Assembly (NCBI RefSeq): GCF_034259205.1
Contig: NZ_CP139487.1
Coordinates: forward strand, 3,348,001-3,412,000
From: Peredibacter starrii
GTDB lineage: Bacteria > Bdellovibrionota > Bacteriovoracia > Bacteriovoracales > Bacteriovoracaceae
Reading direction: 5' to 3'
DNA: 64,000 nt
This document shows, one piece after another, positions 3,013 through 30,752 of this stretch (within the stretch, counting starts at the first letter, position 1; each line of letters starts with the position of its first letter). A program made the position numbers and the translations under genes. The notes under the pieces were generated by a model. The model had not been told where the DNA came from, made no database searches, and was given only the letters and a program-made list of their open reading frames with translations.

Positions 3013-3517
3013 AAAAGAAAAAATGCTTTCCGGTGATCTTTATTGGGCCGGAGATGAAGAACTTGTAAAAGATCGTGAGCGCTGTAAAGCGGCCCTCAAA
3101 GAGGAAAATACGAGAAGGCTTATTCCAAATGCACCAGAGAGTCTTTACATCCAATTTCCCTTTTATTGCGACTATGGTTACAACATCGACTGTGGTGAGA
3201 ATGTCTTCATTAATGCTAATTGCGTTTTTTTAGACGTGGCCAAGATCACGATTGGTTCACATGTACTTTTTGGACCGGCCGTTCAAATCTACACTGCTTC
3301 CCATCCACTGGATTATATGACCAGGAGAAAACTGGAATTCGCCAAACCAATTTCAATTGGCGACGACTCCTGGATCGGTGGGGGTGCCATCCTAATGCCA
3401 GGTGTGAGCATCGGTAATAGATGTGTCATCGGTGCAGGAGCGATTGTCACCAAAGACATACCGGATGATTCACTTGCTGTCGGTAATCCGGCAAAGGTCA
3501 TCAAGAAACTAATTTAA
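3005..3517 (+). CDS. maa: Maltose/galactoside-type sugar O-acetyltransferase
   Basis: This 170-residue protein aligns over its length with the NodL/LacA/Maa family of left-handed beta-helix acetyltransferases. It has the N-terminal Mac domain (KMLSGDLYWAGDEEL...R), the catalytic region FINANCVFLD and TASHPLD (catalytic His in the latter), and hexapeptide repeats ending SIGNRCVIGAGAIVTKDIPD and AVGNPAKVI. The family transfers acetyl from acetyl-CoA to sugar hydroxyls and acts as a cytoplasmic trimer. The sugar substrate cannot be told from sequence; the symbol is by family resemblance. It is translationally coupled to the DUF192 lipoprotein and shares a TTAA stop (3514-3517) with the convergent ctlX-like gene. 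Confidence 0.85.
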   Translation: MNEKEKMLSGDLYWAGDEELVKDRERCKAALKEENTRRLIPNAPESLYIQFPFYCDYGYNIDCGENVFINANCVFLDVAKITIGSHVLFGPAVQIYTASHPLDYMTRRKLEFAKPISIGDDSWIGGGAILMPGVSIGNRCVIGAGAIVTKDIPDDSLAVGNPAKVIKKLI

Positions 3518-4407
3518 AAGACCTCACCCATGAGGCAACGGGCACCACCGCCACCATAGGTTTCAATCGTATTTAGAGATGCATGCAGGATTTTACCTTC
3601 TTGAGAAAGTTGCTCTCGCTGTTCCGTTTTTAAACTATCATGGGCCCGGGTTGAGCATATCCAAAACTTCACTCCATTCTGATTTTGAAGGAGGAGCATG
3701 TTCCCATCAAAATTCTCCATTTGCTCGTGGGTGATATCAACAATTGCTTTGCCCGTTTCTGCAAAGGTCTTCGTCAGAAGAGCAAGTTCTGAAGGATTGC
3801 GAATGGATTCTATGTTGATAATAACGTTCTTCTTCCCCAAGGCCATCATCACATTCGTGTGATAAATCTGCTGTCCATTTTTGTCCACGGACTCAAAGGA
3901 CACAATTCGATATCCGGACTGCTCCGAAAATACGGTTAGAAGTTCCGGAGACGTTCTTGGAGCAAGACAAGCATAGGCAATCTTAAAGTCATGATCAAAA
4001 ATTAGACTTCCCGTACCTTCCAGATAAAGACCTCTCTCTCCATAGGACCGTAGATCGATAACTTCCTTTGCTTCTAATGCATCAATCACGTCTTGCCTGA
4101 ATTCACGGCGACGATTTGGAGCAAACATCGGGAAAAGAAAGACTCGTCCATCTGGCAATTTGCAAAACCAATTGTTGGGAAACAAAGCATCAGGAGTATT
4201 TTGTCCGGCCAGTTCTTCGAATTTCAAAATCTTTATTCCATGATCAGTGAGAACGTTTTGAAACCGATCAAACTCTAGTTGGGCCCTTGCCACAATTTCT
4301 GATTGAGACTCTACAGAAGAAGTATTTTGAAAACTATTCGACCCACTGGTCTCGGGATTTGAGCAAAAACTGAGGGGCCTTACCATGACAATTGTCGATG
4401 CATTCAT
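3514..4407 (-). CDS. ctlX: Amidinotransferase-fold hydrolase (CtlX-type)
   Basis: The 297-residue protein matches the citrulline utilisation hydrolase/arginine deiminase-related group of the amidinotransferase (pentein) superfamily. Diagnostic parts are the start MNASTIVMVRP, the substrate loop DALFPNNWF, the RREFR stretch, the catalytic His region IYHTNVMMALG, and the nucleophilic Cys291 in the C-terminal GGGGARCLMGE. These enzymes hydrolyse guanidino- or ureido-type substrates through a Cys-His-acid centre. No citrulline or arginine catabolic genes sit beside it, so its substrate here is open. It is a monocistronic gene convergent with the acetyltransferase. Confidence 0.82.
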   Translation of the reverse strand: MNASTIVMVRPLSFCSNPETSGSNSFQNTSSVESQSEIVARAQLEFDRFQNVLTDHGIKILKFEELAGQNTPDALFPNNWFCKLPDGRVFLFPMFAPNRRREFRQDVIDALEAKEVIDLRSYGERGLYLEGTGSLIFDHDFKIAYACLAPRTSPELLTVFSEQSGYRIVSFESVDKNGQQIYHTNVMMALGKKNVIINIESIRNPSELALLTKTFAETGKAIVDITHEQMENFDGNMLLLQNQNGVKFWICSTRAHDSLKTEQREQLSQEGKILHASLNTIETYGGGGARCLMGEVF

Positions 4408-4522
4408 TATTCAATCCTAACAAATCTAAAAAAATGATGGAAGCCCGTTTAAGGAAGTCAGTACCAGGGTTTAGAAAAATCTCTTTGTGTGTAAAAGTAT
4501 GGTCTCACACCTAGGAGGGATT

Positions 4523-5167
4523 ATGATCAAGGTACTTTTAGCAACAAATGATTCTATTCTCGAGAGAATGCTTCAGGTAACTCTCACCATAAACGGTCTA
4601 TCAGTCAACTCTGTGGCCGATTTGGATGGAATTACAGCTCAACTTAGAAAAGATGACTACAATATTCTTTTACTCGATAGAAACTTTTCAGATGCCGGCA
4701 TTCTGGTAAGACGGGAAGGATTCAAACTACCAGTTCTTGCCCTGACCAAAGCGCCAAAAGCATCTAGCGTGAAGGACATCGAATTTCTGGCCGATCCATT
4801 CGACTTCCCTTCTCTGAAACTAAAAATGAATGGCATGTTGAAGAAACGTTTCAATTTGAAAGAGAGAATAATTGAATCCGGGCAGCTTAAAATTGACGTC
4901 ATCAATCAACTCGCAACGATCAAGAACGAAGTGATCAATCTGGGTAAGGTTGAGTTTGCCATTCTGGTTTCGCTAAGTAGAAAAGCGGGGTCCATCGTTA
5001 CAAAGGAAAAATTACGAAGTGATCTCGAGGCCCAAGGGCAGTTCTTTAATACCGCGATCTATCACCACATCAAAGAACTGAAACGAAAACTCAAAGTGGC
5101 AACAGGTCAGGGCCTTAATATTAAGTTCGTGACAGGAGAAGGTTATCAATTGATGAACGAAGGATGA
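4523..5167 (+). CDS. Response regulator with degenerate receiver and OmpR-type winged helix
   Basis: The ATG at 4523 has an aggaggga ribosome site 5 bases upstream and gives 214 residues; a start at 4487 adds 12 unlikely residues. Residues 1-105 resemble a shortened receiver: Asp52 in ILLLDRNF sits at the phospho-acceptor site, but the acidic pair is reduced to N9-D10 and the conserved lysine of the K-P-F motif is replaced (LADPF at 89-93). Residues about 120-214 form a winged helix of the OmpR/PhoB type (LGKVEFAILVSLS..., IYHHIKELKRKL, FVTGEGYQL). It lies 18 bases before the alkD-like gene on the same strand. No kinase is adjacent. Likely a DNA-binding regulator with atypical or phosphorylation-independent control (inference). 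Confidence 0.78.
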   Translation: MIKVLLATNDSILERMLQVTLTINGLSVNSVADLDGITAQLRKDDYNILLLDRNFSDAGILVRREGFKLPVLALTKAPKASSVKDIEFLADPFDFPSLKLKMNGMLKKRFNLKERIIESGQLKIDVINQLATIKNEVINLGKVEFAILVSLSRKAGSIVTKEKLRSDLEAQGQFFNTAIYHHIKELKRKLKVATGQGLNIKFVTGEGYQLMNEG

Positions 5168-24100: not shown

Positions 24101-25183
24101 ATGATTACTAGGTCAATTACTGATATAAAGCGCTACCCCCTGAAAAAGAATGATTTGCTTCAGGGCTGGGACGCCGCTGATTCCCTCATTCTTGAACATA
24201 TTAAATCTCTGGATCTAACTGGTAAGCGCATACTCATTATTAACGATCAGTTCGGGGCCTTAAGCTGTGGCCTTTACGGCCATGACATCACCAGCTACAC
24301 AGACTCCTATGTCAGCTATCGTGGAATACTTTTCAATAGCGAGCAGCAAATCACGCCGATTAGCAATCTCAAAGATCTTTCCGGGATATACGATTACGTT
24401 CTTCTTCAAATTCCAAAGAACATGTCTTTCCTGGAAGATATCCTGATTCACTTAACGAATCACCTTCTTCCTCATAGCAAACTGATTTGTGGATCAATGG
24501 TAAAGCACCTTGCCCCAACAAGCTTTGATCTAATAAATAAATATATCGGCACAACCTCTACTAGTCTTGCTGTGAAGAAGGCCCGACTGGTATTTGCAAA
24601 TTTTGAGAAAGCGAAGGTCCCGAATATCTATCCACAGAAGATCAAGATGGATGGGTTTGAAAAAATTTTTACCAATCATTCAAACCTATTCAGTCGTGAG
24701 AAATTGGACATTGGAACCCGTTTTTTTCTTGAGCATATCCCTAAAGGCGACTTCAATGCGATTCTTGATCTTGGCTGCGCAAATGGCATCATTGGCATCA
24801 AGGCCAAGGAGTTAAATCCGAAGGCCCAGATTCATTACAGCGATGAATCCTTTATGGCGATCTTAAGTGCAAAAGAAAATTACCAAAATCATTTTACAGA
24901 TGAACCCGTTCTTCACTGGACCAATTGCTACGAAGATGGCGCCAAGAACTCTCTCGATCTCATCTTGTGTAATCCCCCATTCCACCAAGGAACAACAGTG
25001 GGAGACTTCATCGCGACTCAGATGTTTAAAGATGGCCACAACGCTTTAAAGAAAGGCGGATCAATTCGAGTGATTGGGAATTCTCACCTGGGCTATCAGG
25101 TAAAACTCAAACAGATATTTGGAAATTCCAAAATCGTTGCCACCAATAACAAGTTCATGATTGTGGACGCGCAAAAGATTTAG
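24101..25183 (+). CDS. rlmG: RsmC/RlmG-type rRNA guanine-N2 methyltransferase
   Basis: The 360-residue protein has a degenerate N-terminal MTase-like domain and a C-terminal catalytic domain with SAM motif ILDLGCANGIIGIKAKELNP, the acidic residue in IHYSDES, and the N-P-P-F catalytic motif (LILCNPPFHQG). The tail IGNSHLGYQVKLKQIFGNSKIVATNNKFMI resembles RlmG (23S G1835) more than RsmC (16S G1207), but the two are close; symbol is by best resemblance. It starts 20 bases from the divergent EamA gene. Confidence 0.82.
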   Translation: MITRSITDIKRYPLKKNDLLQGWDAADSLILEHIKSLDLTGKRILIINDQFGALSCGLYGHDITSYTDSYVSYRGILFNSEQQITPISNLKDLSGIYDYVLLQIPKNMSFLEDILIHLTNHLLPHSKLICGSMVKHLAPTSFDLINKYIGTTSTSLAVKKARLVFANFEKAKVPNIYPQKIKMDGFEKIFTNHSNLFSREKLDIGTRFFLEHIPKGDFNAILDLGCANGIIGIKAKELNPKAQIHYSDESFMAILSAKENYQNHFTDEPVLHWTNCYEDGAKNSLDLILCNPPFHQGTTVGDFIATQMFKDGHNALKKGGSIRVIGNSHLGYQVKLKQIFGNSKIVATNNKFMIVDAQKI

Positions 25184-25203: not shown

Positions 25204-26661
25204 TTAATATTGAATGCTCGTTGGTATCTCATCGACTGGCATGTAATTTTTTATTGTCAGCTTACTTTCAATTTCTTTCATGCGCTTTTTGAAATCACTG
25301 ACATGCTGATTGAGATGAGGTTGTTTAAAACCATAATCAACTTTCATGAGATCACTCACGTTCCATGTTTCATAGAACAAACGATTCGCCATGATCCATT
25401 TTGTTTGATCAATAATCGTCAGGGCCTTTTTGTGATTGAATTTAAAATCAGGATTTTTAAATTCAGGGCTGCCGATTCGTAAACGCATTGGATTGTGATA
25501 AACAGGAATTTCCGAATATGTTCTATGATCAGTGGCGTGTCCGAGAGTTAAATCCCAGATTAAAACCGCCACGGCCTTGACAAAATTATCTCTCTCCCAA
25601 ATTTCTACTCCATCCGGAAAGCTCGGCATGAAGGAATTAATATAATTCGCCCATTGAGTGACGACTTCATCTCCGCGTGGGATTTCCTTTAAAACATTTT
25701 TCGCCAATTCATAATAGGCCGGATAATAGGCATCATGAAAATTGCCAAAATCAGAGAGACACTTTTTTGGGCCAGATAGTGGATAAGTATATGGCTGATA
25801 AGATGGATTTCCTTTAATCCCTTTGTACCCAACGACTAAAAGGTCGCGTAGACTTTCACTGGTTGCAGGGAAAGGTCCGTAAATCATCCACCATTTATTT
25901 TCCAGTAGCGATGTTGGATTGTTCAAAACCTGGTAATCCAACTTCAATGTAATATCGAAATGAGGAATTAAAAATTGAAATAGCAGGTGATCTGTCGGTA
26001 CTGACGTTTTGGTAATGGCATTAATAGCATCCATTGGAAAATGGAGCTTTGGGTGTTCCACGACATTGATATGAACAGAGGCCCCTTGAATACAAATGAA
26101 TTTTGCAAGCGCCCAGAGATCTCCGTCATTGGGATCGACAACATAATTGCGAAGATTGATCGCCACTGGTTTTGCGTTCTTCCCATCGACCTCAAAGAGC
26201 GTAATGGATTTTTCACAGTGAAGTCCTTCGATAGGAGTCAATAAATCCATCGCCGAAAAATCGACCACATAATAAGTTTTCGATCTGTCGATATAACCAG
26301 AGAAGATTTTTCTTACGTTGAATGAAAGCTCATCCTTCAAATATTTTGCATAACAAGTATGGAAGAACAGATTTTTAAACTCTTCATTACTCAGAGGCTT
26401 TAATCCTCCATACCAAAGAGATCTACATAAAGCTCTTGGAGTATAAAATGCCAGATCCCATAAATAACGTGATCCAACTTTCATCCACCATCTGAATGTC
26501 TCAGAGAAAGGCAAATGTAAAACTGCAGGGACTTCCCCTATTGGGTGATTGGCAGATGGTTGAGGCCATGGGCCACCACGATTGTATAAAAACTTTTGTG
26601 GGGGCAATTCATTGAGATCTTTTTCGAGTTCTGGATTCTCTAATTTAAGGGCCGAAGACAT
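25204..26661 (-). CDS. Short lipoxygenase-fold protein
   Basis: The 485-residue protein has no signal peptide. Its central helix resembles the lipoxygenase iron helix: W183ALAK187 then H197, H203, H207 and D211 (VHINVVEHPKLHFPMD), followed by DHLLFQFLIPHFDITLKLDY like the HPxxxLLxPH region. A second motif near the end, LTLGHATDH (H375, H379), occupies the place of the third iron histidine and its N partner, and the chain ends EIPTSIQY where lipoxygenases end G-I-P-N-S-I-x-I with the terminal carboxylate as ligand. Lipoxygenases dioxygenate polyunsaturated fatty acids. It is short for the family (bacterial members are about 600-700 residues), the first His pair spacing differs and the terminal residue is Tyr, so activity is uncertain. 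Confidence 0.68.
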   Translation of the reverse strand: MSSALKLENPELEKDLNELPPQKFLYNRGGPWPQPSANHPIGEVPAVLHLPFSETFRWWMKVGSRYLWDLAFYTPRALCRSLWYGGLKPLSNEEFKNLFFHTCYAKYLKDELSFNVRKIFSGYIDRSKTYYVVDFSAMDLLTPIEGLHCEKSITLFEVDGKNAKPVAINLRNYVVDPNDGDLWALAKFICIQGASVHINVVEHPKLHFPMDAINAITKTSVPTDHLLFQFLIPHFDITLKLDYQVLNNPTSLLENKWWMIYGPFPATSESLRDLLVVGYKGIKGNPSYQPYTYPLSGPKKCLSDFGNFHDAYYPAYYELAKNVLKEIPRGDEVVTQWANYINSFMPSFPDGVEIWERDNFVKAVAVLIWDLTLGHATDHRTYSEIPVYHNPMRLRIGSPEFKNPDFKFNHKKALTIIDQTKWIMANRLFYETWNVSDLMKVDYGFKQPHLNQHVSDFKKRMKEIESKLTIKNYMPVDEIPTSIQY

Positions 26662-26847: not shown

Positions 26848-28134
26848 ATGCACTATTTTTTGCTACTTAGTTGTTTTCTGTTCTCTACCCATACGTTTGC
26901 AAGCAAACGAGTCCTTGTGGTTTCTTGGGATGGTTTTCGTCCTGATTTTCTCACATCGGATACATTCAAAACTCCGAATACCAGAAAATTAATGAATGAA
27001 GGCGCCTACTCTTTGGATTTGGAATCTGTTAACCCTACTGTTACTTATCCTAATCACACTACGATGGTTACGGGTGTTCCATCATCTGTTCATGGAATTT
27101 TATCAAACACCGTTTTTGATTCAGCGAAAGGTCCGCTTGCGGCCTGGTATTGGGAAAGTAATAAAATCAAAACTCAACCTCTTTGGAAGCAAGCTTATGA
27201 AGAAGGCAAAAAAACTTCTATCCTTGGTTGGCCAGTAACCGTTGGAGGAAAAGCGACATGGTTTTTTCCGGAAATCTTTGCAGTTGCAGGAATGACTAAA
27301 ACAAATGAAGAGCTCATTAGAACAGCAAGCGATCCGGCCGCTCTCAAAGAAGTTGAGACTGCACTTAATGAGAAAATTCCAACAGAGAACGAGCTTCCTC
27401 ATGATCAGTGGTTGGTCAAAGCGGCAATCTATTTAGAGAATAAGCACCATCCTGACCTGCAACTAGTTCACCTTGCAAATGTGGATCATTGGCAACATGA
27501 ATCAGGTATCAACTCAAAGGAAACCATCGCTTCAGTTGAAGAAATGGATCGTCAGATTGGAGAAATAAGTGCGGCGGCCAAGAAAGAAAATGTATGTCTT
27601 ATTGTATTGGGAGATCACGGCCACGCGGATTTTCAATCAGTGTACAACATCAATTTTATTTTTAAGAAACATGGTCTGCTCAATATTAATGAGAAGAAAG
27701 AACTTGTTTCCTGGAAAGCAGTTGCTCACTCAAGCGGCGGGATGGCCGCTATTTATCTAAAACCTGAAGCTGATCGAAAAGCAGTTGAGAAGGTCCTCAA
27801 AAATGAATTAAAAAACGGCTTTGAAATTCTATCAAAAAATGGGTTTAAAACTCTCAACATCTATCCTGATGCTGACTTTGTTGTGATCGCCAAAATTGGA
27901 TACGGCATTAGCGGCGGTTTCAATAAGGACAAAGAAATCGACGTACAAACGACAACACATGCTAACCATGGATACTTGAGTTCATTGAAAGAAATGAAGA
28001 CTGTATTTTTGGCAAGCGGCTGTGGAATCAAACCAAAGAACATTGGAAAGATGAGTATGCTTCAAGTTGCTCCGACGATTGCTAAATTGTTGGGAATGAA
28101 GCTCAAGGCAGCGAAGAGTAAACCCGTGCTGTAA
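26848..28134 (+). CDS. Secreted NPP-type alkaline phosphatase-superfamily phosphodiesterase
   Basis: The 428-residue protein has a signal peptide (to about residue 18, HTFASKR) and the nucleotide pyrophosphatase/phosphodiesterase motifs in order: metal Asp28 in VSWDGFRPDFL, nucleophile Thr66 in NPTVTYPNHTTMVTG, metal residues in LANVDHWQHESG, LGDHGHADF and the final His in THANHGYLSS. These zinc enzymes cleave phosphodiester or pyrophosphate bonds of nucleotides or lipids, in the periplasm or outside the cell. Gene is monocistronic, with an inverted repeat upstream and a strong terminator downstream. Confidence 0.88.
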   Translation: MHYFLLLSCFLFSTHTFASKRVLVVSWDGFRPDFLTSDTFKTPNTRKLMNEGAYSLDLESVNPTVTYPNHTTMVTGVPSSVHGILSNTVFDSAKGPLAAWYWESNKIKTQPLWKQAYEEGKKTSILGWPVTVGGKATWFFPEIFAVAGMTKTNEELIRTASDPAALKEVETALNEKIPTENELPHDQWLVKAAIYLENKHHPDLQLVHLANVDHWQHESGINSKETIASVEEMDRQIGEISAAAKKENVCLIVLGDHGHADFQSVYNINFIFKKHGLLNINEKKELVSWKAVAHSSGGMAAIYLKPEADRKAVEKVLKNELKNGFEILSKNGFKTLNIYPDADFVVIAKIGYGISGGFNKDKEIDVQTTTHANHGYLSSLKEMKTVFLASGCGIKPKNIGKMSMLQVAPTIAKLLGMKLKAAKSKPVL

Positions 28135-28794: not shown

Positions 28795-29442
28795 TCAAGT
28801 CTGAGGAATCGCTCTTAATACAACCCAAGCCACTATTGCTCCCAGTAGCTGTGCTGCAACAAATGGAAGATAATGATTAATTGCCATGCCTCCAAAGGAG
28901 TTAGTAAAGTTTCGCGCAAAGGTAACTGCCGGATTGGCAAATGAAGTTGAGGAAGTAAACCAGTAAGCAGAAGTAATATAGGCTGCAACACTCATAGGTG
29001 CAAACTCAACATGTTTTTTCCCTGCTAAGGCTATCGTGCAAATTAGACCAAATGTCGCAATCACTTCAGACAACAGTAAATGACTCCCTAAACGTTCAAT
29101 TTCTGAAAGCTGAAAAACTGGTAATTGAAAAATAACATGAGTAAGAATCACTCCCAAATACGCACCCGCCATTTGAGCTAAAATATAGCCAACAACTAGT
29201 TTTCGATCAATTTGCCCCCATAACATTTCTACCAGACTCACAACAGGGTTGATATGCGCACCTGAAATAGGGCCCAGGCACTGAATGAGAACAAAGAGAC
29301 CTGCCCCAGTGGCCAGAGAGTTTGCTAATAGTGCGAGTCCAACTTGCCCTGGGAATAAATTTTGCCCCATAATTCCTGAGCCAAGGACAATCATGACAAG
29401 AAATGCTGTTCCTAAAAATTCCGATACTATTTTTGCTTTCAT
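28795..29442 (-). CDS. aqpS: Aquaglyceroporin-type channel of the arsenic operon
   Basis: The 215-residue protein has six TM helices and both NPA-type boxes: GAHINPVVSLVEM in the first half and SFANPAVTFARNFT in the second; the first box is NPV instead of NPA. MIP-family channels in ars operons (AqpS) conduct arsenite out of the cell after arsenate reduction, replacing an ArsB pump. Its start overlaps the arsC stop by one base, and it is the last gene of the merR-arsI-arsC-aqpS unit. Confidence 0.87.
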   Translation of the reverse strand: MKAKIVSEFLGTAFLVMIVLGSGIMGQNLFPGQVGLALLANSLATGAGLFVLIQCLGPISGAHINPVVSLVEMLWGQIDRKLVVGYILAQMAGAYLGVILTHVIFQLPVFQLSEIERLGSHLLLSEVIATFGLICTIALAGKKHVEFAPMSVAAYITSAYWFTSSTSFANPAVTFARNFTNSFGGMAINHYLPFVAAQLLGAIVAWVVLRAIPQT

Positions 29443-29867
29443 TATTTATTGCCAAGGATTTGAGGAAGCTTTTTGATCGAAGCTTCAATCTCATCTCTTA
29501 CTCTCCGGTAAACATTGAGTACTTCTCCTTCATCTTTAATATCTTTCGTCAAAGCAGGTGGATCTTGAAAACCCACATGAATAATTGTCCCGCTAGGAAA
29601 ATATGGACAAGTCTCTTTGGCAGCATCACATACCGTTATAACATAATCAAATTTTACATCTGGAAGTTCTTCAACCGTTTTGGAGTGATGTGATGAAATA
29701 TCGACTCCAACCTCTTCCATCACTTTCATTGCTCTAACATTCATACCGTGCTTCTGTGTTCCGGCAGAATATACATTAAATACTTCTCCCCAATACTTTC
29801 GACAAAACCCTTCTGCCATTTGTGAACGACACGAGTTTCCAGTACAAAGAAACATGATATTTTTCAT
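29442..29867 (-). CDS. arsC: Thioredoxin-coupled arsenate reductase
   Basis: The 141-residue protein matches the low-molecular-weight phosphatase-like ArsC family: P-loop C8-TGNSC-R14-S, and the redox pair Cys80 and Cys87 in VITVCDAAKETCPYFPSG; all three reductase cysteines are present. It reduces arsenate to arsenite with thioredoxin as electron donor. ArsI lies just upstream (5 bases between) and the arsenite channel just downstream, so it sits in the expected pathway order. Confidence 0.93.
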   Translation of the reverse strand: MKNIMFLCTGNSCRSQMAEGFCRKYWGEVFNVYSAGTQKHGMNVRAMKVMEEVGVDISSHHSKTVEELPDVKFDYVITVCDAAKETCPYFPSGTIIHVGFQDPPALTKDIKDEGEVLNVYRRVRDEIEASIKKLPQILGNK

Positions 29868-29872
29868 AAAGC

Positions 29873-30322
29873 CTAACAGCAGCTTTTAACAGTGGATGTT
29901 TTTGGAACACAACAAGCACTTGTGGTAACCTTAGGAGTCTTTGGCTTTTCACTATATACTTCAGCATCGGCCATCGTTTGATATGTTTCCCAAGCAATAC
30001 CTGATGGGTCTTTCACCCAAGCCTTATTTGATTCAGCGTAACAGCAAGTTGTTGTTCCTTCTCCATAGACACCCAAATCCGCATTCTTTAGACGTTCAGT
30101 CAGTTCAGAGAGTTCATTGCCTTCATCAACTTGAAATCCAAGATGATCTACACCTTCTTCATTTGAGCGAGTAGAAATAGCAAAATTAATTCTGGGATCT
30201 TCAAGCATCCACTTTGCGTAATCTTCTTTCTGCTTTGTTGGTTTTTGCCCAAAAAGAGTTGAATAAAATTGAACTGATTGATGAATATCTTTTACACCGA
30301 CGTGAATATGAAATCGTTTCAT
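29873..30322 (-). CDS. arsI: ArsI/CadI-family glyoxalase-fold C-As lyase
   Basis: The 149-residue protein is a vicinal-oxygen-chelate (glyoxalase/bleomycin-resistance) fold: RFHIHVGVKDIHQSVQFYSTLFG, DHLGFQVDEG, and KDPSGIAWETY. The vicinal cysteines C93-C94 in GTTTCCYAESNKAW are the arsenic-binding pair of ArsI; His60 and Glu112 are at the iron-ligand positions. ArsI demethylates trivalent organoarsenicals such as methylarsenite; CadI homologues respond to cadmium. The C-terminal tail adds two more Cys pairs (SACCVP and KSCC). A strong aaggagg site precedes the ATG, and it follows merR by 13 bases. Confidence 0.87.
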   Translation of the reverse strand: MKRFHIHVGVKDIHQSVQFYSTLFGQKPTKQKEDYAKWMLEDPRINFAISTRSNEEGVDHLGFQVDEGNELSELTERLKNADLGVYGEGTTTCCYAESNKAWVKDPSGIAWETYQTMADAEVYSEKPKTPKVTTSACCVPKTSTVKSCC

Positions 30323-30335
30323 AAAATCCTCCTTC

Positions 30336-30752
30336 TTAACATTTGCAGCCTAATCCGGCCGCAAAACATTCTTGAACTTTGTATTGTTTAACTTGATCCT
30401 GGCTGGCATCACAAGCGCATGCTAACTTCTCTAAGCTTGCTTTCATTCTATTTAGATCGGCGATCTTTGCCTTTATCTCTTCAATCTTCGCTTCAGTTTT
30501 AACTTTTACAGTTCCACAGGTCATTCTTGGTTTTGTATTTAGCTCAAGTAGTTCTTTGACCTCATTAAGCGTAAATCCTAAATCCTGAGCACGTTTAATG
30601 AACCCAATCCTCTGTGCATCTTCTTCGTTGTAAGTTCTGAATGCACCAGTTGCTTTTGGTTCTCGAAGTAGATTTTTTCTCTGGTAGAAACGCACTGTCT
30701 CTACTCCTACTCCTGCCATCTCTGCTAATTTACCGATTGTTATCTTTTCCAT
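30336..30752 (-). CDS. merR: MerR-family metal-sensing regulator
   Basis: The 138-residue protein has a MerR winged helix (TIGKLAEMAGVGVETVRFYQRKNLL...AFRTYNEEDAQRI), a long dimerisation helix with EIKAKIADLNRMKASLEKL, and cysteines at 79, 112, 114, 129, 136 and 138. Cys79, Cys112/114 and a C-terminal Cys resemble the three ligand positions of mercury MerR (82, 117, 126). It is the first gene of an arsenic operon that has no mercury genes, so I infer that it senses arsenite or a related soft metal. Its own promoter carries a perfect dyad (30760-30790), implying autoregulation. The symbol names the family, not the ligand. Confidence 0.85.
   Translation of the reverse strand: MEKITIGKLAEMAGVGVETVRFYQRKNLLREPKATGAFRTYNEEDAQRIGFIKRAQDLGFTLNEVKELLELNTKPRMTCGTVKVKTEAKIEEIKAKIADLNRMKASLEKLACACDASQDQVKQYKVQECFAAGLGCKC

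Follow-up and report, generated by a model that had tools for sequence, protein, structure and literature searches.

A rare sister clade of the lipoxygenases with a rebuilt putative metal site and a possible link to bacterial signalling proteins

In this study we describe a protein family, here named xLOX, which on sequence grounds is an undescribed and rare sister clade of the lipoxygenases (LOXs), comprising about 70 sequences from four phyla and lacking a Pfam or NCBIfam model. It was met in a stretch of 64,000 nucleotides of Peredibacter starrii (the window, positions 3348001-3412000 of a 4.15-Mb single-contig genome), where an uninterrupted minus-strand open reading frame of 485 codons with an ATG start occupies positions 25204-26661, its stop codon lying at 25204-25206; the plus strand of this interval is rich in stops. 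Our preferred reading, which we hold with moderate confidence, is that xLOX is a LOX sister clade with a rebuilt putative metal site, that it handles lipids and that its output is read by a signalling protein.

Results

The Pfam lipoxygenase model PF00305 matches the window protein with 12.7 bits, below the gathering cut-off of 23.6 bits. Matches are weak in 16 of 19 members, a single relative lying above the cut-off (26.1 bits), and NCBIfam assigned a family to neither the window protein nor five relatives. A PDB sequence search with the window protein alone was suggestive at most (E 0.28). The LOX fold and a common ancestry with LOXs, both proposed in a sequence-only reading of the gene, are confirmed by structural models and profile comparison. 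AlphaFold2 gave a model with pLDDT 84.9 and pTM 0.86 from 19 sequences and one with pLDDT 93.5 and pTM 0.91 from 53. The sequence-only reading had also suggested comparing a predicted structure with those of LOXs; when this was done, 132 PDB chains matched in Foldseek at E <= 0.001 and the best 50 of these 132 were all LOXs, with no unrelated fold among them. Superposition on human 12-LOX (8GHB) yielded Z 31.1 over 444 of 485 residues (rmsd 2.8). Residue 485 of the model pairs with the chain ends of 8GHB (residue 663), Cyanothece lipoxygenase 2 (CspLOX2, 5MED; residue 569), Pseudomonas LoxA (685) and soybean LOX-1 (839), and in the structural alignment it meets the terminal residue in nearly all LOXs among the matches listed. 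Both His helices are modelled with confidence, and residue 485 falls on the ligating terminus of LOXs. In a profile-profile comparison (hhalign) with a classical set of 23 myxobacterial LOXs, gathered via PF00305, the E value was 4.8e-25 over 351 columns; unaided, the family profile retrieves classical LOXs from the PDB (E 7.5e-6) and from genomes (E 1e-4 to 5e-15). Residues ~10-485 all align with the LOX catalytic domain (12-LOX chain residues 117 onward), so that the PLAT beta-barrel is absent, as had been predicted from the sequence. No signal peptide is evident in the window protein.

Conservation was counted over 53 aligned homologues, each of at least 450 residues. Among these, 22 columns are invariant, including H203, H207, H234, H375, D378, H379 and Q484, and of the His residues in the window protein, 16 in all, five are invariant (H203, H207, H234, H375, H379). 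The residues quoted earlier from the sequence (W183ALAK187, H197, H203, H207, D211, FQFLIPHF at 228-235, H375-ATD-H379 and EIPTSIQY) all bear the numbers then given to them. H197, then counted among the ligands, is His in 13 of 53 homologues and has to be struck from the candidates. The coordinates that follow are window positions on the minus strand. The first ligand helix begins with W183ALAK187 (26101-26115), W and K each being kept in 50/53 xLOX proteins and in 23/23 and 15/23 classical LOXs, respectively. It leads to H203-PKL-H207-FPM-D211 (26029-26055), the putative first metal-ligand pair, in which H203 and H207 are present in 53/53 and the proline after the first His is nearly invariant (P204, 47/53). 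H207 shares its column with the latter ligand His of the classical first pair (23/23). The other classical His of this pair (23/23) aligns to position 202, where xLOX has V, T or E, and the xLOX His stands one residue later, at 203; the first pair thus reads H-x3-H in 53/53 xLOX proteins as against H-x4-H in the classical set. A one-residue shift of the first His pair had been suspected before; the altered spacing stands, while the shift itself touches the first ligand His alone.

H234 of the IPH motif (25960-25962) corresponds to the conserved PH of classical LOXs (53/53 xLOX, 22/23 classical). The putative second metal-ligand pair, H375-AT-D378-H379 (25525-25539), has each of its named residues in 53/53; H375 occupies the third-ligand column and H379 the fourth, which holds Asn in 20 and His in 3 of 23 classical LOXs, and the spacing H-x3-H (53/53) fits the classical H-x3-[NHS] rule. 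At the C-terminus, EIPTSIQY (25207-25230) contains the invariant Q484 and ends in Tyr485, whose carboxylate is the putative fifth ligand. The last residue is aromatic in 52/53 xLOX proteins (Tyr 31, Phe 21, Ser 1), whereas the classical set has Ile 21, Leu 1 and Val 1 of 23. The departure from Ile that the sequence-only reading had pointed out is thus real, and structural alignment puts Tyr485 on the iron-ligating last residue of solved LOXs. Eight held-out Myxococcota members, a set not fully independent because some of them come from genomes identical or close to loci already counted, all carry H-x3-H-[FL], H-x3-H and an end in -Q[YF]; a distant outlier (L151) has HAWSH, HAADH and the end -ICF. 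The conserved putative ligand set is, by these alignments, corrected to H203/H207 and H375/H379 plus the C-terminal Tyr/Phe, and, with good support, the four His and the terminal carboxylate would coordinate a single non-haem Fe or Mn ion.

Two positions around this site differ as well. The column scored as the second-shell Gln, which we take to be the equivalent of Q697 in soybean LOX-1, is Tyr or Phe in 51/53 xLOX proteins, and V245 (25927-25929), aligned to the Ala/Gly stereo-switch (Coffa site), is Val in 53/53, with Ala in 21/23 classical LOXs. Therefore LOX chemistry is possibly altered or lost. The ligand helices of classical LOXs contain pi-helical bulges, as seen in crystal structures, and in xLOX such a bulge has plausibly been lost or reshaped through the deletion of one residue. 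HMMER places the deletion between H203 and H207, hhalign just before H197; the modelled helix is broken exactly at H203 in the pLDDT 93.5 model and continuous in the pLDDT 84.9 model.

A search of named genomes gave 46 xLOX loci. The family occurs in Bdellovibrionota, Bacteroidota (Algoriphagus, Flammeovirga), Myxococcota and Pseudomonadota (Polaromonas, Halomonas, Paracoccaceae, Cocleimonas), and is rare: of 145 related genomes 17 have homologues, as do 8 of the 237 Myxococcota genomes searched (E < 1e-100) and, in the surroundings of Algoriphagus, 1 of 295, namely the central one. No relatives were found on plasmid records. The closest named relatives of the window protein are 71% (L020, a Bacteriovorax sp. 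MAG), 65% (L025) and 58% (L021 and L022) identical. In a quick tree with long branches, a branch with support 100 separates 54 xLOX members from 24 other LOXs. Searching 129 genomes of the class of the window organism with PF00305 returned the xLOX family alone, with one match over the cut-off. We found no literature linking LOX with Bacteriovorax or Bdellovibrio.

A second xLOX copy (L018; L107:6466-7878) lies at 1189423-1190874 of the window genome; it is 39% identical and ends in IQF. This paralogue adjoins an aldehyde dehydrogenase gene (Pfam) as well as thiolase-like and alpha/beta hydrolase-like genes (by eye), and its neighbourhood is partly kept within the genus of the window organism. 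Two further loci hold other lipid-related genes. The xLOX gene of Algoriphagus boseongensis is divergent from one for a LOX of ordinary type (L043:3517-5679; 721 residues; PF00305 44.9 bits) with HFTGTH and HTWIN motifs and a terminal Ile. At the myxobacterial locus L153, the gene immediately after the outlier xLOX encodes a cNMP-binding patatin phospholipase with an NTE P-loop-like domain; a further LOX (3136-5070; PF00305 40.7 bits) is encoded ~4 kb away. The latter LOX also has a weak N-terminal match to a transthyretin-like (TTR-52) domain.

Signalling genes are frequent next to xLOX. Since G+C-rich loci can add false ORFs, rank 1 was set against ranks 3-5, and Pfam confirmed the domains in examples. 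Signalling domains (HK, cyclase, kinase, RR, SpoIIE) occupied 21 of 88 immediate neighbour positions versus 6 of the 175 positions at ranks 3-5 (Fisher p 8e-7), in statistics that ignore kinship, use simple ORF calls and rely on domain profiles built partly from the neighbours themselves. The type of partner varies with the lineage. Bdellovibrionota have 6TM histidine kinases separated by gaps of a few bases (for example L020, L029, L033), and the Halobacteriovorax group has a Pkinase-AAA-GAF-HATPase protein of ~1690 residues one gene away. Algoriphagus, Cocleimonas and others carry a Pkinase-AAA-GAF-cyclase of 1700-1800 residues, usually 10-85 bases downstream, whereas a 7TMR-DISM cyclase adjoins xLOX in Polaromonas and Sulfuriferula, a SpoIIE partner is found in a Cytophagales genome and a hybrid HK-receiver in a Zetaproteobacterium. 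Passive synteny explains this poorly because the output module swaps while xLOX stays. An adjacent signalling gene is absent at many Myxococcota loci, at Flammeovirga loci and at the syntenic Bacteriovoracaceae loci, and in no case did we see xLOX fused to an output domain.

A single membrane sensor common to all partners was considered and rejected: the Zetaproteobacterial kinase and a 243-aa protein of the Halobacteriovorax group do not look related to the Bdellovibrionota 6TM domain, and the apparent relatedness of that domain to the one in the Cytophagales SpoIIE protein is modest (83% probability). In the Halobacteriovorax group xLOX is separated from the giant Pkinase-AAA-GAF-kinase by an apparent membrane protein of ~245 residues with no Pfam match (L021:7426-8157, L022:7426-8157, L140:6080-6823). 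A conserved neighbour of ~190 residues recurs in Myxococcota (L154:7881-8453, L156:8103-8678, L157:7536-8114, L049:5288-5869) and has no Pfam or NCBIfam match.

The window xLOX is itself without a signalling neighbour, being flanked by a convergent methyltransferase (24101-25183, PF05175) and a divergent phosphodiesterase (26848-28134, PF01663). On the minus strand at 28795-30752 we noted, by eye, an apparent arsenic-type operon with a MerR-like regulator, a glyoxalase-like protein with a Cys-rich tail, an ArsC-like phosphatase and an aquaporin-like channel. An orthologue of the kinase adjacent to xLOX at L020 is encoded at 1455194-1456474 of the window genome (53% identity, E 3.6e-152; next best 2e-41). 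Hence this kinase, whose orthologue stands beside xLOX in the closest relatives, is the likely partner in the window organism, as far as sequence comparison can tell. Among the 145 relatives the 6TM-kinase domain is present in 14 of the 17 xLOX genomes versus 15 of the 128 others, kinship being ignored in this count.

Discussion

The aromatic terminus and the H-x3-H site, as read from the alignments, set xLOX apart from every reviewed lipoxygenase. A 2026 review of LOX catalysis still gives all lipoxygenases three fixed His, one His, Asn or Ser, and a last residue that is Ile or, in rare cases, Val (PMC13059375). We have filed xLOX as a sister clade rather than as classical lipoxygenases because the spacing and terminus that we tested fall outside the definition of the latter. 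Some caution on novelty is advised by LOX1 of Myxococcus fulvus, whose first cluster is numbered His372 and His376 (PMC6612559) and would be H-x3-H too if that numbering holds.

Several known systems resemble xLOX in part. CspLOX2 was the top Foldseek match among the matches listed (E 2e-14, TM 0.74 by query length) and also the best PDB match of the sequence profile, with its residue 569 aligned to the xLOX C-terminus; however, it has H-x4-H and a second cluster H-x3-N, is ~80 residues longer and is 13-15% identical. Fungal Mn-lipoxygenases (5FNO, 5FX8) share the fold (Z 27-28), the absence of the beta-barrel and a terminus other than Ile. Their His spacing is ordinary. They are fungal enzymes and, unlike xLOX, end not in an aromatic residue but in Val (PMC13059375). 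The top structural Z scores (29.7-31.1) belong to the mammalian 12/15-lipoxygenases (8GHB, 3RDE, 1LOX), which use four His and the terminal carboxylate as ligands (PMC11011848), a scheme that matches the one proposed here; they differ in having a PLAT domain, H-x4-H, an Ile terminus and the Ala/Gly switch. In its role xLOX might be compared with eLOX3 (ALOXE3), a fatty acid hydroperoxide isomerase of LOX fold working downstream of an ordinary LOX, whose hydroperoxide it uses (PMC13059375). This likeness is a lead only, and eLOX3 has the classical ligands and a PLAT domain.

How might such a protein work? In the mechanism that we propose, and with good support, a one-residue deletion in the ligand helix would have turned H-x4-H into H-x3-H and remodelled the segment bearing the first two ligands. 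With moderate support, xLOX would be cytosolic and handle a fatty acid or a fatty-acid hydroperoxide, the latter possibly made by another enzyme, and might act as an oxygenase, a hydroperoxide isomerase or a redox-active receptor. A signalling protein, either membrane-borne or of several domains, would then, again with moderate support, read its product or bound state, the candidate readers being the 6TM histidine kinase, the kinase-AAA-GAF-kinase or -cyclase, the 7TMR-DISM cyclase and the SpoIIE phosphatase.

It might instead be, in line with the fatty acid dioxygenase of the sequence-only reading, that xLOX is a conventional fatty-acid dioxygenase that tolerates the altered spacing and terminus and makes hydroperoxides as other LOXs do. 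The fold is the same, the ligand positions correspond, and W183, H234 and the TL-x-L stretch following it are common to classical LOXs; the genes kept beside the paralogue (aldehyde dehydrogenase, thiolase-like, alpha/beta hydrolase-like) would be compatible with lipid oxidation. We regard this as rather unlikely in view of the exchange of the Ala/Gly switch for an invariant Val, of the second-shell Gln for Tyr/Phe and of Ile for Tyr/Phe, and because the gene surroundings speak for signalling. A dioxygenase would moreover be redundant in the two genomes that already encode an ordinary LOX nearby, and the class of the window organism is without an ordinary LOX (129 genomes, PF00305).

The changed second shell could also mean that catalysis has been given up, xLOX being a catalytically dead or redox-sensing receptor of LOX fold that binds a lipid or responds to O2, NO or redox state as the soluble input subunit of the neighbouring kinase or cyclase. 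The rare, patchy distribution would suit this, as would the differing classes of output module across phyla, which are expected of an exchangeable sensor. Yet all ligand positions together with D378 and Q484 are strictly kept at 27-70% identity, suggesting selection for a reactive metal, and a fusion to an output domain would be looked for in vain among our sequences; we find this possibility doubtful, to the same degree as the dioxygenase. As to a functionless remnant of an ordinary LOX, decaying or cut short, which the sub-cut-off Pfam score and the shorter chain might suggest, we dropped it as extremely improbable, contradicted by the conservation pattern: the ORF is intact, close orthologues exist, the motifs are invariant over four phyla in a separate clade, and the altered site is the rule throughout the family, neither an isolated oddity nor the truncation that the sequence-only reading had offered as one option.

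We therefore return to xLOX as a lipid-handling protein whose output is read by a signalling partner. The lipid side of this reading is in keeping with the ordinary LOX beside xLOX in Algoriphagus and with the LOX and patatin phospholipase around the outlier at L153. From sequence and gene context its role is likely metal-dependent oxylipin chemistry or sensing that feeds a signalling protein. A more specific version, which we put forward tentatively and would not bet on, is that the rebuilt site of this four-phylum LOX branch serves as the chemical input of signalling, an oxylipin being made or sensed there and the adjacent kinase, cyclase or phosphatase reporting it.

Bacterial LOXs have been placed in under 0.5% of species (PMC6612559). 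Such counts probably omit xLOX, because most of its members escape surveys with classical models. An entire clade with a different His spacing and an aromatic terminus suggests that there are alternative ways to build a LOX site, and xLOX offers a natural comparison for the effects of the ligand helix and the terminal residue on the redox tuning of the metal. Judging from its neighbours, xLOX may belong to a bacterial lipid-signalling system. The neighbourhoods turn enzyme-coupled oxylipin signalling in bacteria into a concrete, testable proposal, and the lineages concerned include some that prey on other bacteria.
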